From: an uncultured Bacteroidales bacterium
GTDB lineage: Bacteria > Bacteroidota > Bacteroidia > Bacteroidales > Muribaculaceae
DNA length: 64,000 nucleotides
Reading direction: 5' to 3'
NCBI GenBank assembly: GCA_902787185.1
Contig: CADAFP010000001.1
Span: 1-64,000, forward strand
The notes below the pieces were generated by a model that worked only from the letters and a program-made list of their open reading frames with translations, did no database searches and was not told the DNA's origin. Positions 17,045-51,504 of this stretch are shown one piece after another; position 1 is the first letter of the stretch; every line of letters begins with the position of its first letter. Made by a program: the position numbers and the translations under genes.

Positions 17045-17665
17045 TTACTTCACAACCTTAACAGCGCTGGTGGTGCCGTCGGTGTAGGTGGTAACGACGA
17101 TGGTCATGCCGTTAGCCTCCTGCATCTCCTGACCAGCCATGTTGAAGAAGCGAACACCAGCAACAGCCTTGTCAGCGTTCATCTCTTCGATACCGGTGCG
17201 GGGACCCTGAGCGCAGTATACGAAGTAAGCCTCCTCTTCAGTGTAGGGGTTCTGAACATAAACACCGAGGGTGTAAGCGTAACCTACGGGCACGGTGTAC
17301 ATGTACTCAGTCTCCATCAGGGGGTTGGACATGGTGTGAGCGGACTCACCCATCAGGGTAGCCTGCAAGTCAGTCTGGGCACCCATGCGAACACCATTAA
17401 CAACGAAGAAGAAGGGAACGACGGGGCGGTTAGCCTCGTTCTGAGCATCGCTCAGGTTCTCATCCCAGTAGAACTGACCCCACTTCTCATAGTTCAGAGT
17501 AACGGTGGTGGTGTAGCTACCATCGGAACCGAGGTTCAGCTGGAAGGGTTCCTCATTGCCAAACTGGTCGTACATAACCAACCAGTAACCGGTCTCGGGA
17601 GCCTCAAATGCCATAGCTGCGATAGCTACCAAAGCAGTTGCGAAAGAAAGAAGTAATTTCTTCAT
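17045..17665 (-). CDS. Small secreted protein with T9SS-like C-terminal tail
   Basis: 206 residues with a signal peptide at 1-19 (MKKLLLSFATALVAIAAMAF). The mature part (residues 20-155) is beta-rich and acidic (YWLVMYDQFGNEEPFQLNLG; VTLNYEKWGQFYW; PVGYAYTLGVYVQNPYTEEE) with no family that I recognise. The last 45 residues (VRFFNMAGQEMQEANGMTIVV ... SAVKVVK) are nearly the same as those of the next gene downstream, which suggests both are exported by the same route and anchored or cleaved alike. The closest -7 element (17874-17882) leaves a leader of about 205 nt. A perfect palindrome terminator follows. Confidence 0.75.
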   Translation of the reverse strand: MKKLLLSFATALVAIAAMAFEAPETGYWLVMYDQFGNEEPFQLNLGSDGSYTTTVTLNYEKWGQFYWDENLSDAQNEANRPVVPFFFVVNGVRMGAQTDLQATLMGESAHTMSNPLMETEYMYTVPVGYAYTLGVYVQNPYTEEEAYFVYCAQGPRTGIEEMNADKAVAGVRFFNMAGQEMQEANGMTIVVTTYTDGTTSAVKVVK

Positions 17666-38293: not shown

Positions 38294-38325
38294 TTTGTTC
38301 ATAATAATATATGTTGTAACTTTGC
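38294..38325 (+). promoter_or_regulatory. Consensus promoter of the phosphatase-NRPS unit
   Basis: TTTG (38294-38297), exactly 19 bp, TAACTTTGC (38317-38325). Predicted start about 30 nt before the phosphatase ATG. It is the only clear promoter I see before the NRPS and its partners. Confidence 0.82.
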
Positions 38326-38359
38326 ACACTTTTGGATAAGCCCAAATTAATGAGTAAAA

Positions 38360-40579
38360 ATGAAGAATTTGCTGAATAGAATTCTGAAGTCATCCAAGTT
38401 GAGGAGCGGACTTACTTTAATTATCACGGCTGCTGTGTTGCTGGAGTTGATAGCGGCACTGCAATACATGTACGCTCACCGTGTGCTGGAGCGTGAACTT
38501 GAGCACCGTGCCGAGACCGAGATGACACTCAAAGCCATACTCATTAAAGGCACGCTTCAAAAGACAGAGCAGATGCTGCGTGACTATTCGTGGGATATCA
38601 TAGATGCTCTGGATAACCCCGATTCAGTGGCTAGTGAATTAGCTTTTCTAGTTGACAATAATCGGGAAATTCTCAGTTCAGGAATGGCGTTTGTGCCCAA
38701 TTATTATCCCTCTAAGGGTTATTGGTATGAACCGTTTGCCAAGATCGAGAATGGAAAGCTAATCTGCCGCCAGTTAGGGGACGAAAGCCATGATTATACC
38801 CAATTGGACTTCTATAACCAGGCATTAGAGACAGGGAAGCCAACTTGGGCTGACCCATACGTTGATGTGGCCAGTAATAACGTGGAGGATACACTCATCA
38901 CCACCCATTCCATGCCTATTATAGACAAATACGGCAAACTGGCCGGCGTGTTTGCCATTGATGTTTCGTTGGACTGGCTCAGCGACACCATCAATGCCCG
39001 CCATGCATATCCATCGTCGTTTGACCTGCTCCTTACAGAGGGGGGCGACTTGGTTTGCCGACCCAAAGCGTCTCATATCAATGCCGGTGATGTCAGTCTG
39101 GTCCATCAGCTGATTAATGACAGTTCTGTAGTCAGGCACAAGAGTCAAAGTGGCATTACCACCATCATTGAATTCCGTTCACCATACGATGGCGAAAAAG
39201 GTTATATTTTCTATGCCAACATGAAGGGTAAGCCGCATTGGCAACTGGCTGTGGCATGTTATGAAAAGGAAGTTTATGCCCCGCTGAAGCGCATGCGCCT
39301 CATGCTGTCGTTAGCAATGCTGGCGGCAATGGGGCTGCTGGGACTCATCGTTTATAGAACGGCCCGAAGTGAGCGCCGCTTGCACAGAGCCGCTGTTGAG
39401 CGTGAGCGCATCGGTGGTGAATTGCGCATCGCACGAAACCTGCAGATGTCGATGCTGCCCGTTAAGTATCCCGCATTTCCCGACCGCACCGACGTTGATG
39501 TGCGCGGTCTGCTGATGCCTGCCCGTGAGGTGGGTGGTGACTTGTACGACTTCTTTATCCGTGACGAGAAACTGTTCTTTGCCATTGGCGACGTGAGTGG
39601 CAAGGGAGTGCCCTCGGCGCTTGTGATGGCGATTGCCCATGCCTTGTTCTACTCGACCTCCAGCCATGAGAGTAATCCGGCATACATCATGCGCGACTTG
39701 AACGAGACCGCCTCGCGCAACAATGATAGCAATATGTTTGTCACGTTCTTCATCGGTGTGCTGGATCTGCCGACGGGCCGCCTGCGTTATTGCAATGCGG
39801 GCCATGAAATCCCCATCATCATCGGGAAGCAGCTCTCGTTGCTTCCTGTTGAGGCCAACCTGCCTCTTGGCATTATTGGTGACTTCAACTATGAGGTGCA
39901 GGAGATCATCCTTGAGCCCAACTCGTCGTTGTTCCTCTATACAGACGGACTGACCGAGGCCATGGACGATGAACACCTGCAATTCGGTCTTCAACGCAGC
40001 ATGGATGCCCTGATGCCCTATTGCGCGATGAAGAACCCGTCGTTGGAAAAGATGCTGGAATCAGTACGCAACGAGGTAAATACCTTTGTTGACGGTGCCG
40101 ATCAGAGTGATGACTTGACGATGCTCGTGATCAGCTACACCCCCAAGAGTGAGACCTTGGTGTCGCACGAGTCCATTACATTGACTAATGACGTAAGTCA
40201 GGTGCCCGACCTCAACAACTTTGTGACGTCATTCTTGAGCCGCTTGCATGTTGACGCCTCTATCGAAGGCCAAGTCAAGCTGGCTGTCGAGGAGGCCGTT
40301 GTCAACGTGATGAATTACGCGTATCCCATGGGCACACAGGGCAGCATCACCCTTGATGCCGCATCCGACGGCACTTTCTTGAAATTTGTCATCACCGACT
40401 CGGGAAAAGCCTTTGACCCGACTGAAGGCGGTAGAGTGGACACTACTTTGTCGGCCGAGGAGAGGCCTATAGGTGGGCTTGGCATATTTCTTGTAAGAGA
40501 ATTAATGGACTCCATCAATTACGAGCGCATTGACGGAAAGAACATTTTAACATTAAAGAAAAGTATTAACCATAAATAA
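38360..40579 (+). CDS. Membrane SpoIIE-type phosphatase with dCache-like sensor and anti-sigma-kinase-like domain
   Basis: 739 residues. TM1 is at about 17-36, a dCache-like extracytoplasmic sensor at about 40-310 (MAFVPNYYPSKGYWYEPFAK; DKYGKLAGVFAIDVSLDWL) and TM2 at about 313-333. A short linker leads to a PP2C/SpoIIE domain with GGDLYDFF (about 392), GDVSGKGVPSALVMA (about 410), YTDGLTEA (about 527) and DDLTMLVI. The C-terminal 120 residues are a GHKL/RsbW-like ATPase (VKLAVEEAVVNVMNYAYP; GGLGIFLVRELMD). It would sense an external cue and both dephosphorylate and bind or phosphorylate the STAS protein encoded 11 bp downstream. All metal-binding aspartates look intact. The ultimate output is unknown, since no sigma factor is adjacent. 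Confidence 0.92.
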   Translation: MKNLLNRILKSSKLRSGLTLIITAAVLLELIAALQYMYAHRVLERELEHRAETEMTLKAILIKGTLQKTEQMLRDYSWDIIDALDNPDSVASELAFLVDNNREILSSGMAFVPNYYPSKGYWYEPFAKIENGKLICRQLGDESHDYTQLDFYNQALETGKPTWADPYVDVASNNVEDTLITTHSMPIIDKYGKLAGVFAIDVSLDWLSDTINARHAYPSSFDLLLTEGGDLVCRPKASHINAGDVSLVHQLINDSSVVRHKSQSGITTIIEFRSPYDGEKGYIFYANMKGKPHWQLAVACYEKEVYAPLKRMRLMLSLAMLAAMGLLGLIVYRTARSERRLHRAAVERERIGGELRIARNLQMSMLPVKYPAFPDRTDVDVRGLLMPAREVGGDLYDFFIRDEKLFFAIGDVSGKGVPSALVMAIAHALFYSTSSHESNPAYIMRDLNETASRNNDSNMFVTFFIGVLDLPTGRLRYCNAGHEIPIIIGKQLSLLPVEANLPLGIIGDFNYEVQEIILEPNSSLFLYTDGLTEAMDDEHLQFGLQRSMDALMPYCAMKNPSLEKMLESVRNEVNTFVDGADQSDDLTMLVISYTPKSETLVSHESITLTNDVSQVPDLNNFVTSFLSRLHVDASIEGQVKLAVEEAVVNVMNYAYPMGTQGSITLDAASDGTFLKFVITDSGKAFDPTEGGRVDTTLSAEERPIGGLGIFLVRELMDSINYERIDGKNILTLKKSINHK

Positions 40580-40590
40580 GTGATTAGAAA

Positions 40591-40893
40591 ATGAAAACAA
40601 GAATTGAGGAAATGGAGGGCAAGATTATTGCCACGCTTGAAGGTGAACTTGACACCGCTGCGGCGATGGAAGTGGAAAAGGAATTACAACCCCTGTATGA
40701 AAACAAGGGACGCGATATCGTCATTGAGTGCGGTAAACTGGAGTATATCGCATCAAGCGGTTTGCGCATTCTCCTGGGTATCCTCAAGAGCACCAAGGCT
40801 GGTGGTAACAAGGTCACCTTGCGCAACATGAATGACGACATCAAGAATGTCTTTAAGATGACCGGATTAATCAATCTGTTTGACATTGAGTGA
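40591..40893 (+). CDS. STAS-domain anti-sigma-factor antagonist (RsbV/SpoIIAA-like)
   Basis: 100 residues, a single STAS domain: IIATLEGELDTAAAMEVEKEL, then YIASSGLRILLGILKSTKAGG with the conserved phosphorylatable serine (about residue 57-58), and VFKMTGLINLFDIE. In partner switching the unphosphorylated form binds an RsbW-type kinase. Both kinase-like and phosphatase domains are present in the protein encoded just upstream, so this is its likely partner. Stop and the next start share a base (TGATG), tying it to the outer-membrane protein and NRPS genes. Confidence 0.92.
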   Translation: MKTRIEEMEGKIIATLEGELDTAAAMEVEKELQPLYENKGRDIVIECGKLEYIASSGLRILLGILKSTKAGGNKVTLRNMNDDIKNVFKMTGLINLFDIE

Positions 40894-42251
40894 TGCACCT
40901 TCCCATGTGCAAACTTAATAATATCAGACTGTGGATACTATCTGCAGTCTTGTTTCCTGTTCTGACGTCAGCAGCTCAGCCTGCTGATGCCGACAGCATT
41001 CCCCCCAAGGAGAACGAATTGACGATTGAACTGCAGTTCCTGGCGCGCGGTGAGTCGCGCTACGGCGGGCTGGTTGCCGAAGCCACTGATGACGAGGATG
41101 AAGAAGTGGCCGCAAAGTCCAATTTTGTGCAAGGCCGTACGAGGTTGCCCATCAACTTCCGCCGTGATTGGCTCGAAGCCCGTGTCACACCGCAACATGC
41201 AGGTGTGTGGGGGCAGTCGGGAAAGGGCTCGTTCAACCTGTATGAAACCTGGGTAAGGCTAACGGCTCCTTTTGGAATGTTCGCGCAGCTCGGCAGGGTG
41301 GCACTGTCCTATGATGACGAACGCATCATCGGCTCGGATGACTGGGCTATGGCAGCACAGTCTCATGACGTGGTCCGCTTAGGCTATGAGGGCCATGGCC
41401 ACAAGGCGCATGTGATTCTCGCTTACAACCAGAACACTAACGTGGTAACAAGTGGAGACACCTATTACGAGAACGGTGCCCAGCCCTACAAAACGATGCA
41501 GGACCTTTGGTATCACTATGATTTCAGCCGCATTCCCTTGGGCGCTTCCCTGCTCTTTATGAACATCGGCATGCAGAGCGCCCCCGATGTGCCTCGGCGC
41601 ACGTGGTTCCAGCATCTGCTGGGTGGTTATGTGTCATTTGCGCCGAGCCGTTGGAAGACCGAGTTTTCCTATTACCACCAGTTTGGCAAAAATGAGCACG
41701 GCATGAAGATTGACGCTTGGATGGCAAGTGCCAAGGCCGCTTTCAACCCAAATGCCAAATTGGGCTTTGCTGTAGGTTTTGACTACTTGAGCGGTGACTC
41801 GAAATTTGCTGTACCGCCCAGGGGAGGTATCGGCGTGATCAGGCATGAGGTCATTAAGGGCTTCAGCACCGTCTATGGTTCTCATCACAAGTTCTATGGC
41901 GCTATGGATTTCTTCTATGTGAGCGCTTACTTGAACGGTTTCACCCCTGGCTTGCAGAACGCTTACGCTACCGTTGTCTATAAACCCATCCAAAAGCTCA
42001 CGCTCAGTGGCGGATACCACTACCTGGCCACTGCCACCAAACTTGAGGACATGGCAATGAGCTTGGGCCACGAGGTGGAACTGCAGGGCCGTTATTCCTT
42101 TAGCCGCGACGTGAACCTGTCGCTCGGCTTCTCATTGATGCATGGCGATGAAACGATGGAGCGGCTCAAGCGTTCCAGCAATAACAACCTGCTGCGTTGG
42201 GGCTGGATTTCATTGAGCGTCACACCGCGTATTTTTTCAACTAAATGGTAA
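40893..42251 (+). CDS. Predicted outer-membrane beta-barrel protein in the NRPS unit
   Basis: 452 residues. Signal peptide around 8-27 (IRLWILSAVLFPVLTSAAQ). The rest is rich in alternating aromatic and polar strands (LTIELQFLARGESRYGG; SFNLYETWVRLTAPFGMFAQLGR; VELQGRYSFSRDVNLSLGFSLMHGD) and ends with SLSVTPRIF. It resembles alginate-export-type (AlgE/OprD-like) barrels; QGRTRLPINFRRDWLEARV fits that group. The ATG at 40893 overlaps the STAS stop. Placed between the regulator genes and the NRPS, it could be the outer-membrane exit for the product or an unrelated porin. The barrel call is fairly safe; the substrate is not known. Confidence 0.72.
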   Translation: MHLPMCKLNNIRLWILSAVLFPVLTSAAQPADADSIPPKENELTIELQFLARGESRYGGLVAEATDDEDEEVAAKSNFVQGRTRLPINFRRDWLEARVTPQHAGVWGQSGKGSFNLYETWVRLTAPFGMFAQLGRVALSYDDERIIGSDDWAMAAQSHDVVRLGYEGHGHKAHVILAYNQNTNVVTSGDTYYENGAQPYKTMQDLWYHYDFSRIPLGASLLFMNIGMQSAPDVPRRTWFQHLLGGYVSFAPSRWKTEFSYYHQFGKNEHGMKIDAWMASAKAAFNPNAKLGFAVGFDYLSGDSKFAVPPRGGIGVIRHEVIKGFSTVYGSHHKFYGAMDFFYVSAYLNGFTPGLQNAYATVVYKPIQKLTLSGGYHYLATATKLEDMAMSLGHEVELQGRYSFSRDVNLSLGFSLMHGDETMERLKRSSNNNLLRWGWISLSVTPRIFSTKW

Positions 42252-42275
42252 TCAATTAATCAATAATACAGGTAT

Positions 42276-45200
42276 ATGAAACTTTCGGCACCTTTATTAA
42301 AATCCCAATATGGAATCTATGTGGAAAGTGTAAGCCACATTGGTGAACCCTATTACAACCTTCCTTACATCTATGTGCTTGACGGCAGCCTTGACGCCAG
42401 TCGGTTGCTTGCTGCCATCGAGACGGCTTTCAAGGCCCATCCCACGCTGTTTACCCGCATCGCTCTCGCTGATGACGGCGAACCCGTCCAGACCATCGAT
42501 ATGGATAGCGAGGAGTGGTCGCTGGCTATCGAGGACATTCAAGACATCGAGCAGGAAAAACAGCGGTTGGTAAGGCCGTTCGACCTCTACGGAGGCCGCC
42601 TTTTCCACGTCAACTTGTTGCGGGACAAGGAACATTACTATCTCTTCCTTGACTATCATCACATCATTGTGGACGGCACCTCGATGCAAATCATGCTGAA
42701 GGATATCGACAAGGCTTATCTTGGAGAGGACATCGCTCCCGAGGAGTTGACTCTCATGGATGTCGCTATCGACGAGACTGCCACTCGCGAGACGCCAGCA
42801 TTTGACGAGGCCAAGCAGTGGTATGCCGCCAACTTTGACTGCGGCGACACTTTCACCCAGTTCATGCCCGACGTGGAAGAGCCCGAGCACAGCGAGGACA
42901 GCCTGCTGCGCACGCTGTCTCTTGACCTGAACCGCGTAGAGGACTACTGCAAGCAGAACGGCGTGTTCAAGAGCACTTTCTTTACGGGCGCCTATTCGTT
43001 CCTGCTGGCGAAGTTCAACAACGAGCAGGAAAGCCTGTTCACCACAGTGTTCAATGGCCGCCACGACAAGCGCTTTGCCCACTCGGTGGGCATGACGGTA
43101 AAGACCTTGCCCGTCTATGCCAAATTCACACCCGAAACCACCGTGCATGACCTGCTGCTGAAAGGGCAGGAGCAAATGGGCGGTTGCCGCCAACACGACA
43201 TCTATAACTATAGCGACATTGTTACTGACCTGAACCTGCAGAGCAACTCGATGTTCGCATGGCACGGTATGCTGTTTGACAACGAGACGATGGGCGACAA
43301 GCCCATGAAGACCGTGCGTATCGGCAACAGCACGCTGGACGCCTCGTTCTACCTGAAGGTCTTCATCAAGGACGACAAGGTGCAGGCTAAGGCAGAATAC
43401 AATAGCAATGAATATTCCTGTGAGTTCATTGCCCAGATTCTGGAAAGTTATGAAGCGGTGCTGGAGGGTTTCCTGACCCAGGAGTACCTGCGCGACATCA
43501 ATATCGCGACGGCTGGCCAAGTAGCGACTCTCGACGGCTTCAATCCTGGCGAACTGGATTATGACAACAGTCAGACCATCGTGTCGATGTTCCGCCAGCA
43601 GGTTAAGGCAACACCCGATGCCATTGCAGTAGTATATCTGGACAAGCGCTTCACCTATGCCCAAGTTGACGAAATCAGTGACCGCATAGCCGCCTATATC
43701 GTCGGCAAGGGCTTGGGTGCCGAGGACGTGGTATCGGTAATCATTCCCCGCTGCGAATGGATGCCCATCGCCTCGTTAGGCGTGCTGAAAGCCGGCTGTG
43801 CCTATCAGCCGCTTGACCCGAGTTACCCCAAGGAGCGCCTCAACTTCATGATGCAGGACGCCAGTGCCAAATTGCTTATCGCTGACGAGGAATTGCGTCC
43901 CATCGTTGATGAATACCAGGGCGACGTGCTGCTTACCAAGGACATCATGGCACTGCCCGCATCGGCAGCGCCCCAGGTCGACATCAAGCCCGACCAGCTT
44001 TTCATCCTGCTCTATACGTCGGGTTCGACAGGTGTGCCCAAGGGCTGCCAGTTGATTCACAGCAATCTCGTGGCCTTCTGCCATTGGTACCATCACATGT
44101 ATAATCTCGTGCCTGGAAACAAGATTGCTGCTTATGCCAGCTATGGTTTTGACGCCAACATGATGGACACGTATCCCGCGTTGACTTGTGGCGCGACGCT
44201 TTATATTGTCCCCGAGGAACTGCGTCTGGACCTGATTGCGTTGAACGAGTATTTTGAGCAGAACGGCATCACCCACTCATTCATGACGACGCAGGTGGCA
44301 TACCAGTTTGCCACCAGTGTCGAGAACCACTCGTTGCAGTATCTCTCGACCGGTGGTGAGAAGTTGGCATCGCTCACGCCACCGCAGGGCATCAAGTTCT
44401 TCAACCTCTATGGCCCCACCGAGTCAACGGTATTCATTACCTACTATCTTGTGGACAAGAAAATGAAGGAAATCCCTATCGGCAAGGCGCCCAAGAACAT
44501 ACGTTTGTACATCGTTGACCCGCAAGGTCATCGACTGCCGGTGGGCGCCGCTGGTGAACTTTGGGTGGCTGGTCCGCAAGTGAGCCGCGGTTACCTGAAC
44601 CGTCCCGAGAAGACCGCCGAGGTGTATATCACCAATCCGTTCACCACCGAGGAGAAATATTCACGCATCTATCGCACGGGCGACATCGTGCGCTACCTGC
44701 CATCGGGCGACATCCAGTTTGTGGGACGCCGCGACGGCCAGGTGAAAATCCGTGGTTTCCGCATCGAGCTCAAGGAGGTCGAGAGTATCATTCGCGAGTT
44801 CCCCGGTATCAAGGATGCCACAGTACAAGCCTTTGACGAGGAGGGGGGCGGCAAGTTCATCGCTGCCTATATCGTGAGCGACAATCAGGTGGATATCGAG
44901 GCATTGAACAACTTCATCATGGACGAGAAACCGCCCTATATGGTGCCAGCCGTGACGATGCAGATCGATGCCATACCCCTGAACCAGAACCAGAAAGTCA
45001 ACAAGCGAGCCCTGCCCAAACCCGAGAAAAAAGCATCAGAAGTCGAAAATGTCAACGTGCCGATGAACGTGCTGGAGCAGGAACTGCATCAGATGGTGGC
45101 CGACATTGTCAACAACACCGACTTTGGTGTTACAACGGTGCTGGGCTATGCGGGCTTGACCTCTATCTCGGCCATTAAGCTGGCCGTACAAGTCAACAAG

Positions 45201-48200
45201 CGCTACGGCGTGACCCTCGACTCTCGCAGCTTGGTGAAAACGGGTACCATCCAGTCGATAGAGAATGAAATCTTGAAAATGATGCTCGCAGGTGGTGCCC
45301 AACCCACAGCCGAAGCGTCCAAGTCCCAGGTCAAGGCCATTACCAGTGCCCCGCTGTCCTATGCTCAGACGGGTGTCTATTTTGACTGCCTGAAGAATCC
45401 TGCATCGACCATCTATAACATCCCTTATCTGCTCTCTTATCCCGAGGGTACTGATGCCAACCGCCTTGCCGATGCCGTCAAGCGGGTCTTTGAGGCACAT
45501 CCCGAGTTGAGCATACACTTCACCACCGAGGGCGAGAAAATTCTCCAGACGCTTGATGACAGTGTGCCTGTTGAAGTGAATATCGTCGAGATGTCTGAAG
45601 AGGATTTGACGAAATACAAGAACGAGTTTGTGCGTCCCTTCAATCTGCAGAAGGCTCCGCTTTACCGGGTTGAGGTCGTGAAGACCGAGGCCAGCGTGCG
45701 TCTGCTGATGGATGTACACCACTTGGTGTTTGACGGCGGCTCAGCCGACTTGCTCATTCGCCAGCTCAATGCGGCGCTCGAGGGTAAGGCTGTAGAGCGG
45801 GAATCCTACAATTATTTGGATTTTGTTAACGACCAGCAGGCTGCCGAGGATACTGATGCCTTCAAGCAGGCTCAGCAGTTCTTTGCCGAGAAACTGCAGA
45901 TCTGTGAGGGTGCCAGCGAGATTCCTGCAGATCTTCCCAAGAGTGACGAACAAGGCTTCATCGGCGAGGCGGTTTGTCCGGCTGACCTGGACAAGGCTCA
46001 GGCCTTCTGTCGCCAGCAGGAAATCACTCCTGCCCACTTGTTCCTTGCTGCCACGTCCTACGTTGTTTCGCGCTATACCAACAACCGAGACGTTTATCTG
46101 TGCACCGTGAGCAGCGGTCGCAGCAACCTCAAGATTGCTGACACCGTGGGCATGTTTGTCAACACACTAGCCCTGGGCTTGAGCATCGACGATGTGACTG
46201 TCAGCGAGTTCCTGAAGCAGACCAGCGACACATTTGACCAGACGCTCAGGCACGAGGATTATCCTTTTGCCCGCATTGCCACCGACTATGGCTTCCGTCC
46301 TGCCATCGCCTACGCCTATCAGGTGGGAGTGCTTTCACAGTACACCGTTGACGGCAAGCCCATCAGACAGGAATTGCTGGAACTGAATGTGCCCAAGTTC
46401 AAGATCAATATCAAAATCGAGTCACGCGGTGTCGTGGTTCAATATGACGACTCGGTTTACAGTGAGCGCGTGGGACGCGGCATGGCCGAGAGCATCGTTG
46501 CTGTCGCCAACAGGATGATGGCTGAACCGCAGGCCAAATTGCGCCTGTTGTCCATAGTGAGTCCTGGTCAGGAGGAGGAATTGAGTCACCTGCGCCAGAC
46601 GGCGACGGGCGACGCGCCCTTCACCTTCTTCCACGAGTGTATCGGACACTTCGCCCAGTCGCAGCCCGACCACGAGGCGATTGTGGCTATCGATGGCAGA
46701 TTCACCTATCAGCAGATGGACGAAATCACCAGCCGTATTGCAGCCGCATTAAGGAAACGTGGTGTGCAGGAGCGTGACCGTGTAGCCCTGCTGTTGCCGC
46801 GCACCAGCCGCCTAATTCTTGCCCTGTTTGGCGTGCTCAAGTCGGGCGCTGCCTATATCCCCTGCGACCCCGAGTATCCCGCCGACCGCGTGAAACTCAT
46901 CCTCGAGGACAGCGAGGCCCGTTACATCATCACCACTGCCGACCGCATGGACACCGTGCCTGAAGGTAAGGCAATCGACGTGGAAGACCTCATCAACGAC
47001 GATAATGACGGCACCATCGTGACCGACATCACTCCCGATGACCTGGCCTACCTGATTTACACCAGCGGTTCAACTGGCCGTCCCAAGGGTGTGATGCTGC
47101 ACCATCGCGGCATCTGCAACTACCTGTACGGACATCCCGCCAATGTGTTTGCCAATGGTGTGATGACCGATGCCAAGCGCATCCTCAGCGTGACGACCAT
47201 CTCGTTTGACGCCGCACTGCAGGACATCGGCACTGCCTTCTTCAACGGCAAGACGCTCATCGTCGCTACCGAGGAGCAGGCCAACAACCCGCTTGACCTG
47301 GCACAGCTCATCAACGAGGAGCATATCAATATGGTATCGGGAACACCGTCGCGATGGATGACGTGGCTCACGAGCGAGGACTTCTGCGATGCCATCAGCC
47401 GCATCAACATCGTGCGTGCTGGTGGTGAGAAATTCTCTGACCAGCTGTTGGGCCAACTCAGGAATGTGACCAAGGCCCGTATCTTCAACTGCTACGGTCC
47501 CACCGAGATTACCGTGGCGTCTAACAACAAGGAGTTGACCGATGCCGCCCTGGTTACTGTCGGCAAGCCCCAGCTCAACGTCATCGAGTACATCGTTGAC
47601 CAGGATGGCAACGAACTGCCCGTCGGCGTTGTGGGTGAATTGTATATCGGCGGTCGTGGCGTGGCGCATGGTTACAACAACCTGGACGAGATGACTTGCG
47701 AGCGCTTTGTGGATTACCACGGCACGCGCATCTACAAGTCGGGCGACTACGCCAAGTGGCTGCCTGACGGTGACGTGGTCATCCTGGGCCGCACCGACCA
47801 CCAAATCAAACTGCGCGGCCTGCGCATCGAGTTGGGCGAGATTGAGAACGTCATCCTCAAAGTCGAGGGATTGAAAAAAGTCGTCATCCTCATCCGCAAA
47901 ATCAACGACAAGGAGCACCTGTGTGCTTATTATACTGCCGACCGCGAGATTGCACCCGATGCCCTCAAGGCCGAAATTTCCAAGAGCCTGACGCAATACA
48001 TGGTGCCCACGGCCTATCTGCAGTTGAAGGAGATGCCCATGACGCCTAACGGAAAGACCGATGTCAAGGCACTGCCCGAGCCCGAACTGGCCATCAGTTC
48101 GGCCTATGTGGAGCCTGCCAACGACACAGAACGCACCTTCTGCAGCATCTTTGCCGACATCCTGCAAATGGACAAGGTGGGCGCGACCGACAACTTCTTT

Positions 48201-49532
48201 GAGTTGGGCGGCACCTCGCTTGTAGTGACTCGCGTCATCATTGAGGCCGACAAGGCGGGATTGCATGTTGCTTACGGCGACGTGTTCGCCAACCCCACAC
48301 CTCGCCAGTTGGCGCGTCTCATCACAGGCGAGAGTGACGACGAGGGTACCGATGAGATAACAGGATTTGATTACACGGCCATCAACGAACTGTTGCAGCG
48401 CAACACGCTCGAAAACTTCCGCAATGGTGAGCGCCAGCAGCTGGGTAACGTACTGCTGACAGGTGCCACAGGCTACCTGGGTATCCACATCCTGCGCGAA
48501 CTCATCGACTCGGATGCCCAGAACATCTATTGCCTCGTGCGCGGTAAGAGCCTTGAGGCAGCCGAGGGACGCTTGCGCACCCTGCTGTTCTACTACTTCT
48601 CCGACGCCTTCAAGGACCTGTTCGGCAAGCGTCTGCACATTGTCTTGGGCGACGTGACAAGCGACTTTGGCGAGGGGCTGCAGGTGGACACCATCTTCAA
48701 CTGTGCTGCCATCGTGAAGCACTTTAGCGAGGGTACCGAGATTGAGGATGTGAACATCGGCGGTGCTCAGCGATGTGTGGACTACTGTCTCAAGACTGGT
48801 GCCAAGCTGGTTCACGTCTCCACCGCCAGCACCCGCGGCTTGTGGGCTGGCGAGATCAAGAGTGACGTCTTCACCGAGCAACGCCTGTACATGGGCCAGT
48901 TCTTGGGTAACAAATACATCTACTCCAAGTTCATGGCCGAGCGCTTGATTTTGGACGCCGTTGCCCACAAGGGGTTGAATGCCAAGATAATGCGCGTTGG
49001 CAACCTGGCGGCACGTTCTACCGACGGCGAGTTCCAGGCCAACTTTGCCACTAACTCGTTCATGGGTCGCATCAAGGTCTATAACATGCTGGGATGCTGT
49101 CCATACAGTATGCGCAACAAGCAGGTGGAATTCTCGCCCATCAACGAGGTGGCCCATGCTATCGTGTTGCTGAGTTCCACTCCTCGTGAATGCACCGTCT
49201 TCCATCCCTACAACATCCACGGCCAGTTCCTGGGCGACGTGCTCATGGGATTGCTCACGGTGGGTGACGGCGTGAAGTTCGTCGAGCAGGAAGAATTCCA
49301 GCAAAAAATGGAAGAAGCCAAGAATGATCCCGTCAAGGCCAAGGATATGTCATCATTGCTGGCCTATCAGGATATGGCACACGGCCAAAAGACTGCCGAC
49401 GTGAAGCGTGATAATGACTACACGACCCAGGTGCTCTACCGTTTGAATTTCGCCTGGTCACCCACGTCGTGGGACTATGTGGAGCGCATGTTGACTGCCA
49501 TCAGCTCGCTGGGCTTCTTTGATATGTTATAA
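42276..49532 (+). CDS. Two-module nonribosomal peptide synthetase with terminal reductase (C-A-T-C-A-T-R)
   Basis: 2418 residues. C1 is at about 1-430 with HHIIVDG at 128-134. A1 is at about 445-940 with TSGSTG at 581-586 and LYGPTEST. T1 is at about 945-1010 with candidate phosphopantetheine Ser963 in GLTSISAIKL. C2 is at about 1025-1450 with HHLVFDG at 1148-1154. A2 is at about 1465-1940 with TSGSTG at 1596-1601. T2 has LGGTSL, Ser1981. The reductase is at about 2055-2418 with the NAD(P)H loop TGATGYLG (2062-2069), VSTAST and catalytic YIYSK (2214-2218). All key residues are present. It should join two amino acids and release the chain as an aldehyde, or an alcohol after a second reduction. 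A leading C domain suggests N-acylation of the first residue. Hand-read A-domain codes are DAMFSGLVFK and DAQSVACVAK; neither gives me a safe substrate. Confidence 0.95.
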   Translation: MKLSAPLLKSQYGIYVESVSHIGEPYYNLPYIYVLDGSLDASRLLAAIETAFKAHPTLFTRIALADDGEPVQTIDMDSEEWSLAIEDIQDIEQEKQRLVRPFDLYGGRLFHVNLLRDKEHYYLFLDYHHIIVDGTSMQIMLKDIDKAYLGEDIAPEELTLMDVAIDETATRETPAFDEAKQWYAANFDCGDTFTQFMPDVEEPEHSEDSLLRTLSLDLNRVEDYCKQNGVFKSTFFTGAYSFLLAKFNNEQESLFTTVFNGRHDKRFAHSVGMTVKTLPVYAKFTPETTVHDLLLKGQEQMGGCRQHDIYNYSDIVTDLNLQSNSMFAWHGMLFDNETMGDKPMKTVRIGNSTLDASFYLKVFIKDDKVQAKAEYNSNEYSCEFIAQILESYEAVLEGFLTQEYLRDINIATAGQVATLDGFNPGELDYDNSQTIVSMFRQQVKATPDAIAVVYLDKRFTYAQVDEISDRIAAYIVGKGLGAEDVVSVIIPRCEWMPIASLGVLKAGCAYQPLDPSYPKERLNFMMQDASAKLLIADEELRPIVDEYQGDVLLTKDIMALPASAAPQVDIKPDQLFILLYTSGSTGVPKGCQLIHSNLVAFCHWYHHMYNLVPGNKIAAYASYGFDANMMDTYPALTCGATLYIVPEELRLDLIALNEYFEQNGITHSFMTTQVAYQFATSVENHSLQYLSTGGEKLASLTPPQGIKFFNLYGPTESTVFITYYLVDKKMKEIPIGKAPKNIRLYIVDPQGHRLPVGAAGELWVAGPQVSRGYLNRPEKTAEVYITNPFTTEEKYSRIYRTGDIVRYLPSGDIQFVGRRDGQVKIRGFRIELKEVESIIREFPGIKDATVQAFDEEGGGKFIAAYIVSDNQVDIEALNNFIMDEKPPYMVPAVTMQIDAIPLNQNQKVNKRALPKPEKKASEVENVNVPMNVLEQELHQMVADIVNNTDFGVTTVLGYAGLTSISAIKLAVQVNKRYGVTLDSRSLVKTGTIQSIENEILKMMLAGGAQPTAEASKSQVKAITSAPLSYAQTGVYFDCLKNPASTIYNIPYLLSYPEGTDANRLADAVKRVFEAHPELSIHFTTEGEKILQTLDDSVPVEVNIVEMSEEDLTKYKNEFVRPFNLQKAPLYRVEVVKTEASVRLLMDVHHLVFDGGSADLLIRQLNAALEGKAVERESYNYLDFVNDQQAAEDTDAFKQAQQFFAEKLQICEGASEIPADLPKSDEQGFIGEAVCPADLDKAQAFCRQQEITPAHLFLAATSYVVSRYTNNRDVYLCTVSSGRSNLKIADTVGMFVNTLALGLSIDDVTVSEFLKQTSDTFDQTLRHEDYPFARIATDYGFRPAIAYAYQVGVLSQYTVDGKPIRQELLELNVPKFKINIKIESRGVVVQYDDSVYSERVGRGMAESIVAVANRMMAEPQAKLRLLSIVSPGQEEELSHLRQTATGDAPFTFFHECIGHFAQSQPDHEAIVAIDGRFTYQQMDEITSRIAAALRKRGVQERDRVALLLPRTSRLILALFGVLKSGAAYIPCDPEYPADRVKLILEDSEARYIITTADRMDTVPEGKAIDVEDLINDDNDGTIVTDITPDDLAYLIYTSGSTGRPKGVMLHHRGICNYLYGHPANVFANGVMTDAKRILSVTTISFDAALQDIGTAFFNGKTLIVATEEQANNPLDLAQLINEEHINMVSGTPSRWMTWLTSEDFCDAISRINIVRAGGEKFSDQLLGQLRNVTKARIFNCYGPTEITVASNNKELTDAALVTVGKPQLNVIEYIVDQDGNELPVGVVGELYIGGRGVAHGYNNLDEMTCERFVDYHGTRIYKSGDYAKWLPDGDVVILGRTDHQIKLRGLRIELGEIENVILKVEGLKKVVILIRKINDKEHLCAYYTADREIAPDALKAEISKSLTQYMVPTAYLQLKEMPMTPNGKTDVKALPEPELAISSAYVEPANDTERTFCSIFADILQMDKVGATDNFFELGGTSLVVTRVIIEADKAGLHVAYGDVFANPTPRQLARLITGESDDEGTDEITGFDYTAINELLQRNTLENFRNGERQQLGNVLLTGATGYLGIHILRELIDSDAQNIYCLVRGKSLEAAEGRLRTLLFYYFSDAFKDLFGKRLHIVLGDVTSDFGEGLQVDTIFNCAAIVKHFSEGTEIEDVNIGGAQRCVDYCLKTGAKLVHVSTASTRGLWAGEIKSDVFTEQRLYMGQFLGNKYIYSKFMAERLILDAVAHKGLNAKIMRVGNLAARSTDGEFQANFATNSFMGRIKVYNMLGCCPYSMRNKQVEFSPINEVAHAIVLLSSTPRECTVFHPYNIHGQFLGDVLMGLLTVGDGVKFVEQEEFQQKMEEAKNDPVKAKDMSSLLAYQDMAHGQKTADVKRDNDYTTQVLYRLNFAWSPTSWDYVERMLTAISSLGFFDML

Positions 49533-50872
49533 TGATGGACAAGCGACCGCAAGACGGTGACATCACCGTTCAATTCTACCGCTACCTGTGGGCCTATATC
49601 CTGGTGGCCCTCTCGGGCTGTCTGGGTAATGTGGTGGACGGCATCATTGTGGGCAACCTCATCAGTGAGGATGGCGTGAGTGCCATTGCCCTGGCGAAGC
49701 CTATCAACCAGTTCATTTTCACCATGCACCTGCTCATCAACGCAGGTGCGGGTATGCTGGTGGCCTATGCGATAGGACAGAAAAAGATTGACGATGCACG
49801 CAGCTTCTTCACACGGGCGCTGTCGTTGAGCGTGGGGCTTGGCTTGCTGCTTGCACTGGTGGGGGGACTGATGTTCCCTAACCAGACGGCACGCCTCATG
49901 TGCGACAACGAGAGGATTCTGCCGTTAGCCCAGGACTACATCCAAGTGCTACTCATCGGTAATCCTGCTTTTATCCTGATGTGGGGACTCTCGACCATGG
50001 TGGGTGTTGATGGCAGCCCGCGGCTGGTATCGCTGGCGGTCATCGTTGACAACGTGGTCAACCTGTTGCTCGATATCGTGTTCATCCAGTGGCTTGACTG
50101 GGGCATCACGGGCTCGTCGGCAGCGACGGTAGTGGGGCACCTTGTGGGAATAGCCATCCTGCTCACCCATTGGCGCAAACCTGAAAACCGTCGCCTTGTG
50201 CCTGTCTTTACCGGTGATGGCTTGCTCGTCTCGTTGCAGCGCATCATCAATCAGGGTGCGCCGCTTGCCGTGGCGTCGATTTGCTTGACATTGTTGCTGT
50301 TCAGTGCCAACAGAATCGTTCTATCGACCACAGGACGTACAGGTATGTTTGTCTTTGCCCTGTGTATGAACTTGTTGCAGGTCTATAACCTGTTCCTGTC
50401 GGGCACTTGCCAAACGTTGCAGTCGCTTGGCGCCATCCAGGTGGGCAAGAAGGATAACGATGGAGTGCGCATGGTCATCAAGCGGGGTTTCCGTTTCATC
50501 ACTGCGGCTATGGTTGTCACATGTCTGCTGGTGTGGTTGTACCCGCAAGGTATCGCCCGCGTGTTTGGCTGTGACGAGCCCGAGATGTTGACCCAGAGCA
50601 TACCGGCCCTGCGCGTGTTTGCCTTGAGTTTCATCCCGTTCTGCTATATCTATGTGCTGATGATAGTTTATAAGCTTTACGGTCATCACCACATGGCGCT
50701 GTTTATCTCTTTCGCCTTGTCGTTGACCGTGATTCCTGTGCTGTGGCTCATGGCACGCACCCTGCCTGACTGGCTGTGGTACAGTTATCTTATCGCTTAC
50801 CTCATCGAGGCCGTTGCCATCTTTGTGCTGCACCGGGCCACCCATGTGCGTTTTGAACTCAAGCAGCAGTGA
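49532..50872 (+). CDS. MATE family efflux transporter
   Basis: 446 residues, twelve hydrophobic helices in two six-helix halves, inner membrane. Typical MATE features: GNVVDGIIVGNLISEDGVSAIALAKPINQFIF in the first half, INAGAGMLVAYAIGQKKIDDARSFF, and INQGAPLAVASICLTLLLFSANRIVLSTTG opening the second half. MATE proteins expel small organic molecules in exchange for Na+ or H+. The start overlaps the NRPS stop by one base (TAATG), which makes export of the NRPS product, or self-protection from it, the natural role. It overlaps the next gene by 4 bp. Confidence 0.9.
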   Translation: MMDKRPQDGDITVQFYRYLWAYILVALSGCLGNVVDGIIVGNLISEDGVSAIALAKPINQFIFTMHLLINAGAGMLVAYAIGQKKIDDARSFFTRALSLSVGLGLLLALVGGLMFPNQTARLMCDNERILPLAQDYIQVLLIGNPAFILMWGLSTMVGVDGSPRLVSLAVIVDNVVNLLLDIVFIQWLDWGITGSSAATVVGHLVGIAILLTHWRKPENRRLVPVFTGDGLLVSLQRIINQGAPLAVASICLTLLLFSANRIVLSTTGRTGMFVFALCMNLLQVYNLFLSGTCQTLQSLGAIQVGKKDNDGVRMVIKRGFRFITAAMVVTCLLVWLYPQGIARVFGCDEPEMLTQSIPALRVFALSFIPFCYIYVLMIVYKLYGHHHMALFISFALSLTVIPVLWLMARTLPDWLWYSYLIAYLIEAVAIFVLHRATHVRFELKQQ

Positions 50873-51423
50873 TTTACATCGATGACCATATCGACGTTTT
50901 CGACTTGACGGCAGCTTTGGCTGCCGTCAGTCCAGAACGGCGTGCTTATGCCTTGAAATATGTGAATGAACTTGACCAGCGTCTGTCGGTGGCTGCTTTC
51001 TTGCTGTTGAAACGGGCGCTGTCGATGGAGTTCGGGCTGGATACAGTGCCGCCTTTTGTGCGGGAGCCTAATGGAAAACCGCGACTCGACGGTTTCCCCA
51101 ATATCCACTTCAACCTGAGTCATTGCCGCGAGGCGGCTGCCTGTATCGTTGACCGCAGCCCAGTGGGCATTGACGTGGAGTGCATTGATAGGCTTGATGC
51201 CGATGTGGTGGCGATGACGATGAATGAGCGCGAACAGGAGCAGATTGCTGCATCGCCACAACCCGAGGTGGAATTCACCCGCTTGTGGACGATGAAAGAA
51301 AGCCTATTTAAACTCACTGGGAAATATCAGGATGACATACGCTCGATGCTGGCCAACGCTGCCGACTACCATTTCCACACCACCATTTACCCCCGCTTCA
51401 TCTGCACGGTCTGTAGTCCTTAG
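50869..51423 (+). CDS. 4'-phosphopantetheinyl transferase, Sfp-type
   Basis: 184 residues with a GTG start overlapping the MATE stop (GTGA). Motifs: HFNLSHC near residue 82, VGIDVECI near 99 (Mg2+-binding Asp and Glu) and FTRLWTMKESLFKLTGKY near 138 (WxxKE). It moves phosphopantetheine from CoA onto the carrier serines, here T1 and T2 of the NRPS. Being the last gene in the unit, it makes the cluster self-sufficient for activation. It is slightly short for the Sfp class. Its last residues (CSP) and the TAG stop lie in the first units of a heptamer array. Confidence 0.92.
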   Translation: MIYIDDHIDVFDLTAALAAVSPERRAYALKYVNELDQRLSVAAFLLLKRALSMEFGLDTVPPFVREPNGKPRLDGFPNIHFNLSHCREAAACIVDRSPVGIDVECIDRLDADVVAMTMNEREQEQIAASPQPEVEFTRLWTMKESLFKLTGKYQDDIRSMLANAADYHFHTTIYPRFICTVCSP

Positions 51424-51504
51424 TCTTTAGTCCTTAGTCCTTAGTCCTTAGTCCTTAGTCCCTAGTATGGACTAACTCCTAATTTCTAATTCCTAATTTC
51501 TAAA
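51414..51504. repeat. Heptamer array F (between convergent PPTase and exonuclease genes)
   Basis: Thirteen contiguous units in exact phase: TAGTCCT, TAGTCTT, TAGTCCT four times, TAGTCCC, TAGTATG, GACTAAC, TCCTAAT, TTCTAAT, TCCTAAT, TTCTAAA. It spans the whole gap and contains both stops: TAG at 51421-51423 for the PPTase and, on the minus strand, TAG at 51500-51502 for the exonuclease. Confidence 0.92.

Follow-up and report, generated by a model that had tools for sequence, protein, structure and literature searches.

The six genes examined here lie on the plus strand of the window, by which we mean the whole 64-kb stretch of DNA that was analysed, and together span 38360-51423 (Table 1). In order, they encode a PDC/Cache-SpoIIE-HATPase protein, a STAS protein, a predicted outer-membrane barrel, an NRPS, a MATE exporter and a phosphopantetheinyl transferase (PPTase). 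Adjacent reading frames are spaced by gaps of 11 and 24 bp or overlap by 4, 1 and 4 bp, confirming the single plus-strand unit described in the first-pass annotation of this DNA. Upstream lies an NhaC-type antiporter gene and, beyond it, dnaA; downstream follow an exonuclease gene and then a gyrase-A-type gene (Pfam). No sigma-factor gene was found among the six operon genes or these Pfam-read neighbours (DnaA, NhaC, exonuclease, gyrase A). Directly past the PPTase gene, at 51417-51465, are short tandem repeats of a CTTAGTC-like unit.

Table 1. Features of the operon and its promoter (window coordinates).
Feature	Position	Strand	Length	Basis
Promoter, Bacteroidales vegetative-type, TTTG-N19-TAnnTTTG	38294..38324	+		Exact pattern match
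Sensor phosphatase-kinase	38360..40579	+	739 aa	Pfam PF22673, PF07228, PF13581
STAS protein, anti-sigma-factor-antagonist type, SSG motif	40591..40893	+	100 aa	PF01740, TIGR00377 over cut-off
Predicted outer-membrane beta-barrel, AlgE/OprD-like	40890..42251	+		Pfam Alginate_exp, AlphaFold model, Foldseek
NRPS, C1-A1-T1-C2-A2-T2-R	42276..49532	+	2418 aa	Pfam, motifs, alignment
MATE exporter, unfused here	49532..50872	+	446 aa	Pfam MatE
Sfp-type phosphopantetheinyl transferase	50869..51423	+	184 aa	ACPS PF01648 over cut-off

The promoter matches TTTG-N19-TAnnTTTG, which we take to be the Bacteroidales-type consensus, and ends 35 bp before the first gene; its first base is also where the first-pass annotation had placed the start of the region. 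Six such sites occur in the 64-kb window against 0.65 expected, and between 38.3 and 51.4 kb, on both strands, there is none besides this one. Before the SpoIIE gene of relatives the complete pattern is rare (5/62), while the -7 element TAnnTTTG occurs at most 200 bp upstream in 33/63 cases versus 4.9 expected. The corresponding counts are 6/44 for STAS (2.2 expected), 10/48 for the barrel (3.8), 7/54 for the NRPS (3.0), 1/34 for the MATE (1.8) and 3/28 for the PPTase (1.9), all expectations being rough because they come from a single-base shuffle and the sequences are related to each other.

What does the operon make? Pfam divides the synthetase into Condensation, AMP-binding and PP-binding domains, two of each, followed by a terminal NAD_binding_4 reductase. 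HHxxxDG is present in C1 and C2, the carrier Ser in T1 and T2, and GATGYLG, STAST and YxxxK in the reductase, which can be aligned along its length with the AusA reductase (123 bits) and with its closest solved structure, 6vtj (252 bits over 398 residues). We take 6vtj/6vtz to be the NRPS reductase of Methanobrevibacter ruminantium. The first-pass annotation had likewise read a C-A-T-C-A-T-reductase protein with its catalytic and carrier residues in place; our motif alignment finds no disrupted catalytic site, the C, T and R motifs all being intact. All 58 aligned two-module relatives retain the C2, T1 and T2 motifs, and 57 have the Tyr/Lys and Thr of the reductase, the remaining sequence being cut off; HHxxxDG of C1 is kept in 52, the window among them, and incomplete in six. 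The A1 pocket is mostly DAMFSGxxF, with mild variation, and the A2 pocket, DAQSRGCVA, is the same in 43/43 close relatives (>68% identity). The pocket codes gave no amino-acid assignment, and an early guess at an aromatic second residue was dropped. Synthetases among the relatives come in three formats, C-A-T-R, C-A-T-C-A-T-R and A-T-C-A-T-C-A-T-R. Some loci (L033-L038 and, at 17292, L070) have a second, one-module C-A-T-R synthetase with the pocket DAEGTGVDD in 7/7 examined; at L070 it comes after the two-module one, behind a SpoIIE-STAS pair.

Pfam also confirms the MATE exporter and PPTase proposed earlier. The former scores 107.4 bits with PF01554 (gathering cut-off 24.9), its TIGR00797 score of 128.4 lying below that model's cut-off of 147.4; the best NCBIfam model for the PPTase is AusB (65.7 bits, cut-off 225), and the window's genome has another ACPS-family gene outside the operon. 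The outer-membrane barrel of the first-pass annotation is supported by Alginate_exp (PF13372, 34.4 bits against a cut-off of 25.2, though no single stretch passes alone) and by a predicted AlgE-like fold: an AlphaFold (AF2) model with a mean pLDDT of 75.5 is matched by Foldseek to AlgE (3rbh_A, E 2.0e-15, TM 0.61).

These genes had been called a self-contained set for activation, synthesis and export. Its members are confirmed, but the description left out the first two genes of the operon. The 739-aa protein joins a periplasmic PDC/dCache sensor to a SpoIIE (PP2C) phosphatase and a C-terminal RsbW-like HATPase, with metal and ATP motifs intact. Its kinase part matches RsbW, and the closest solved structure to the STAS protein is SpoIIAA (1th8). 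Together, the two genes encode a full partner-switching set: a PP2C phosphatase, an RsbW-like kinase and a STAS protein with a phosphorylatable Ser. This is the only such set found in the window's genome, though provisionally so at 81% completeness. The genome shows a single SpoIIE, one HATPase_c_2 over the cut-off (a second, at 20.9 bits, falls below it) and two STAS matches, the other of which belongs to a sulfate permease. Among relatives whose rows reach the respective motif, the phosphatase keeps GGD in 66/67, DxSGKG in 62/67 and DD in 62/66, and the kinase its N box in 61/61 and G2 box in 60/61; the STAS Ser is conserved in 43/43, with a complete SSG in 39. Reading frames are broken in a few relatives, that of the phosphatase in L046 and L122 and that of the synthetase in L063 and L081. 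As for the signal, amino-acid-sensing dCache_1 domains have the five-residue motif of PctA, including Arg126 (excerpt of PMC9540692); reading our dCache domain by eye, without alignment to PctA, we see no Arg at the expected place.

Similar phosphatases occur in other settings as well. In two genomes (G207 and G193), second SpoIIE copies (L126, 7954; L127, 4863) adjoin a STAS-containing gene of ~397 aa, which at L126 fuses STAS to an APH/choline-kinase-like domain (Pfam). At L116-L118, sensor phosphatases lie near MATE and FAD-protein genes without an NRPS; we set these phosphatase-MATE loci aside, their PP2C motifs being degenerate and the kinase domain absent.

How closely are switch and synthetase tied to each other? 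The synthetase (>1000 bits) is present in 41 of 297 family genomes, namely 33/40 in the genus and 8/257 outside it. Among the 33 genus carriers, that of G268 is cut by a contig end, that of G256 is spread over two contigs and that of G060 is of the three-module form. SpoIIE (>70 bits) is found in 52 of the 297: in 41/41 synthetase carriers versus 11/256 others (Fisher 1.5e-40) and, outside the genus, in 8/8 carriers versus 7/249 others, where both cut-offs were set after inspecting the lists, the cross-tabulation was counted by eye and Fisher values are descriptive since the genomes are not independent (40/297 come from one genus). The two genes lie on one contig, at most 10 kb apart, in 38/41 carriers; in G252 and G146 they are on different contigs and in G154 they are 53 kb apart. 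The pair persists down to 38-40% synthetase identity (L100, L101). Within the genus, three of 40 genomes have neither SpoIIE nor synthetase and four have SpoIIE without this synthetase. The earlier suggestion of a reductive-release NRPS in a host-associated Gram-negative bacterium, accompanied by its own PPTase, an inner-membrane exporter and an outer-membrane barrel, is supported, and 33/40 genomes of the genus carry the synthetase. In a phylum sample of 395 genomes searched at 1e-150, the seven matches were the window's own synthetase and six other NRPSs, which share 29-32% identity and whose alignment stops short of the reductase. On a contig binned to another family (L133, G649) there is a window-like two-module synthetase (4076 bits) with MATE and PPTase, through either transfer or misbinning.

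Gene content was also read at 41 named loci, which represent close relatives only (Bacteroidales records, mostly MAGs). All six genes are present at 18 of them, SpoIIE at 32 and STAS at 32. Nine have neither phosphatase nor STAS, and since ~9-10 kb of upstream sequence could be read for L057, L065 and L083, contig ends are not the only cause. Neighbouring genes are the same as in the window at L058 and differ at the other loci, so that either the block moved or its surroundings did; gene orders vary too. Where a record title states the sample source, it is a ruminant (goat, sheep, yak, roe deer or water deer); the remaining titles give no habitat, and the RUG series presumably comprises rumen genomes.

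Conversely, the switch is found without this synthetase. Four genus genomes (L109-L112) have barrel, phosphatase and STAS, three of them with an unlinked C-A-T-R synthetase. In one (L110 4407-8974, G164), phosphatase, STAS, barrel and PPTase follow in order, but between the last two there is neither synthetase nor MATE. With the PPTase retained, a natural loss from the full operon seems to have removed synthetase and exporter. Beyond the genus, a strong SpoIIE occurs in seven genomes that have no synthetase, with STAS adjoining it in three of them (L113-L115). At L113 (5749-14875, G004), the SpoIIE-STAS pair precedes LuxE and LuxC-AMP-binding acyl-reductase genes, accompanied by genes for an MFS exporter and a GNAT-type protein; here the same switch stands next to a different reduced-acyl route.

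Is the product capped at its N-terminus? In A domains that activate amino acids, an Asp holds the amino group of the substrate. Of the five three-module relatives examined, four (L056, L057, L095, L097) have Val or Ile at this position of their loading A domain, which should therefore load a non-amino acid. The first C domains of the same four cluster with the window's C1, whereas the fifth form, L096, keeps the Asp in its loading A domain and has its C1 in the C2 clade. This split of the tree follows the loading-domain Asp, as a C1 that caps would predict. The N-acylated product proposed in the first-pass annotation hence gains independent support from the C1 clade and loading pockets of relatives, and N-capping by C1 is, as far as tree and pockets can tell, supported. 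Other observations on C1 point the other way. Support for the C1 clade is 0.947 (FastTree); C1 evolves faster than C2 (mean identity 64 vs 71%), and six of 58 relatives lack its full motif; the N-terminal C domain of the C-A-T-R forms, also chain-starting, has a long branch and sits on the C2 side; and the nearest solved relative of C1, 2jgp, is an elongation C domain, a match that we do not consider decisive for whether C1 is a starter (for C-domain subtypes, see the excerpt of PMC10212144). In favour of capping, no C domain was found in the window's genome (81% complete) besides those of the synthetase. Some clusters (L045, L056) include an F390 synthetase/PaaK-related ligase, which might supply the acid there.

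A second clue from diverged relatives concerns where the switch acts. Eight long MATEs (578-611 aa; L056, L057, L095, L097, L098, L100, L101, L132), picked for Pfam testing by their length, carry a C-terminal HATPase_c_2 domain; PF13581 matches 8/8, and our own profiles agree for the first seven (L056-L101). The MATEs of the genus are unfused, and the fusion is seen in diverged clusters. At thresholds that more distant fusions would escape, a search of the 297 family genomes (1e-50) gave 21 matches with five complete fusions and one of 393 order genomes (1e-45) gave three matches with one fusion. Four of the five family fusions (G194, G026, G223, G199) directly adjoin the synthetase and the fifth (G101) lies one gene away; a sixth is interrupted by two contig ends in G175, a genome in which no synthetase was found. 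The order-level fusion, in G559, comes directly before a 3003-aa synthetase with a PPTase gene ~3 kb past it, and no phosphatase/SpoIIE or STAS was found there in C16 1-20000 and 22500-42400. A plasmid collection yielded no MATE-kinase fusion, 0/227 matching records spanning 80% of the fused query. In the predicted fold of the fused protein, the MATE part is of fair and the HATPase part of low confidence. In G101 (L149), one contiguous run comprises STAS - NRPS - OMP - MATE-HATPase - PPTase - sensor phosphatase, the last of these lacking HATPase, and the sole kinase domain in the 26 kb examined is the one on the exporter. This joining of kinase domain and exporter argues, at the level of gene architecture, that the exporter may be an output of the switch.

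We put at roughly one half the probability that the operon makes and exports an N-capped, reductively released dipeptide, likeliest an aldehyde, and that a dedicated partner switch controls its production or export post-translationally. In such a scheme, C1 would cap residue 1 with a non-amino acyl group, C2 would join residue 2, and R would reduce the T2 thioester to the aldehyde. The MATE would carry the product to the periplasm and the AlgE-like barrel would let it out. The PDC domain would read a periplasmic ligand and set the PP2C domain, which would dephosphorylate STAS, the RsbW-like domain rephosphorylating it. Unphosphorylated STAS would bind the RsbW-like domain and thereby gate the exporter, directly in the fused forms, and perhaps the synthetase too. 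As the kinase domain sits on the sensor protein in the window, control there would act through STAS docking. Once outside, the aldehyde would in our view likeliest serve to block proteases of neighbours or of grazing ciliates. The narrower proposition that the partner switch has moved off sigma factors to the exporter, so that STAS phosphorylation opens or closes peptide-aldehyde export according to a periplasmic signal, we advance tentatively, at somewhat less than even odds.

SpoIIAA/SpoIIAB and RsbV/RsbW act as partner switches that hold sigma factors. With a STAS protein closest to SpoIIAA in the PDB and a kinase part that matches RsbW, the RsbW-like domain could instead hold a sigma factor or regulator encoded elsewhere and switch the operon, or a stress regulon, transcriptionally. 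The operon, however, has a vegetative-type promoter (before relatives' SpoIIE, the -7 element in 33/63 and the full pattern in 5/62) and no sigma factor of its own, and a sigma-factor role would leave the kinase-exporter fusion in eight relatives unexplained; we therefore judge a classical switch unlikely. A different objection is that the operon joins two mere neighbours, a porin-control unit of barrel, phosphatase and STAS and the synthetase genes next to it. G156, G272 and G280 do have this trio but not this synthetase, as does G164, where the PPTase accompanies it. Yet the phosphatase is present in 41/41 synthetase-bearing genomes versus 11/256 without, the linkage mostly holds while orders and flanks vary, kinase-exporter fusions adjoin synthetases and G164 looks like a loss from the full operon, which together make a chance neighbourhood very unlikely.

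As for the product, a C1 that does not cap would leave a free-amine dipeptide aldehyde, which would cyclise to a dihydropyrazinone or pyrazinone like the compounds of gut Clostridia. The elongation-type structure nearest to C1, its faster drift than the other domains, the six of 58 relatives without the full motif and the different grouping of the N-terminal C of C-A-T-R forms would all fit this reading, which is nonetheless improbable in view of HHxxxDG being kept in 52/58, window included, and of C1 grouping with C domains that follow a non-amino-acid loading module. There is a modest chance that the product is reduced further to the alcohol, or is a signal or metal ligand rather than an aldehyde inhibitor: two- and four-electron NRPS reductases share one fold, with 6vtj as the closest solved reductase here, but Pfam finds no separate alcohol dehydrogenase gene in the operon. 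An N-capped dipeptide aldehyde under post-translational control remains the reading that we prefer.

Ruminopeptin, from Ruminococcus bromii, carries an N-cap and comes from a synthetase of C-A-T-C-A-T-R type. The operon resembles the NRPSs for ruminopeptin and gut pyrazinones in its predicted product, a dipeptide aldehyde, and that for ruminopeptin also in its C-A-T-C-A-T-R layout; compared by description, it differs in its Bacteroidales host, its barrel and its dedicated phosphatase/kinase/STAS set. Ruminopeptin is a dipeptide aldehyde from the NRPS of a gut Firmicute, the aldehyde being held to be the active form, in the excerpt of PMC12327764, which covers both ruminopeptin and the pyrazinones of gut bacteria. 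With AusA/AusB (aureusimine, Staphylococcus), the operon shares a homologous reductase and the best NCBIfam matches of synthetase (1154 bits) and PPTase (65.7 bits), though both score far below the equivalog cut-offs of 2500 (AusA, NF047350) and 225 (AusB). AusA lacks an N-terminal C domain. A PP2C phosphatase, an RsbW-like kinase and a STAS protein with a phosphorylatable Ser are likewise found in SpoIIAA-SpoIIAB-SpoIIE/RsbV-RsbW-RsbU, SypE-SypA (excerpt of PMC10120452) and SiaA; unlike in those switches, the kinase is here fused to the phosphatase (in relatives, to the MATE), the set is tied to an NRPS and the locus is without a sigma factor. The barrel is predicted to share the fold of AlgE and OprD-like porins but is only ~13% identical to AlgE, and alginate genes are absent among the operon members.

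How new, then, is the operon? The first-pass annotation considered it the best candidate for an undescribed system, which needs qualifying on the biosynthetic side, where ruminopeptin is known and rumen NRPSs have been catalogued by the hundreds: the excerpt of PMC8241843 counts 5,346 rumen NRPS clusters, 934 of them in Bacteroidaceae, and does not, in that portion of its text, describe this one. The switch is what is unusual. Among the open-access papers listed, at the level of titles and abstract starts, we found no report of a partner-switch-controlled NRPS or a MATE-RsbW fusion. To our knowledge, the kinase-exporter fusion would be a new output for partner switching. In sum, the cluster is real, conserved and intact, its product class plausible and of an already-known kind and its regulation unusual, the dedicated partner-switching pair being the more unusual part of the operon.

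Most sampled members of the genus carry the cluster and the A2 pocket is identical in 43/43 close relatives; the product is therefore probably important for the bacteria that make it. Gut Firmicutes are known to produce reactive peptide aldehydes, and here a Bacteroidales cluster appears to make one. The switch could explain how the cell retains a reactive aldehyde until export is possible, and the kinase-exporter fusion offers a direct handle on such control through just three components, a small STAS protein, a kinase domain and an exporter.
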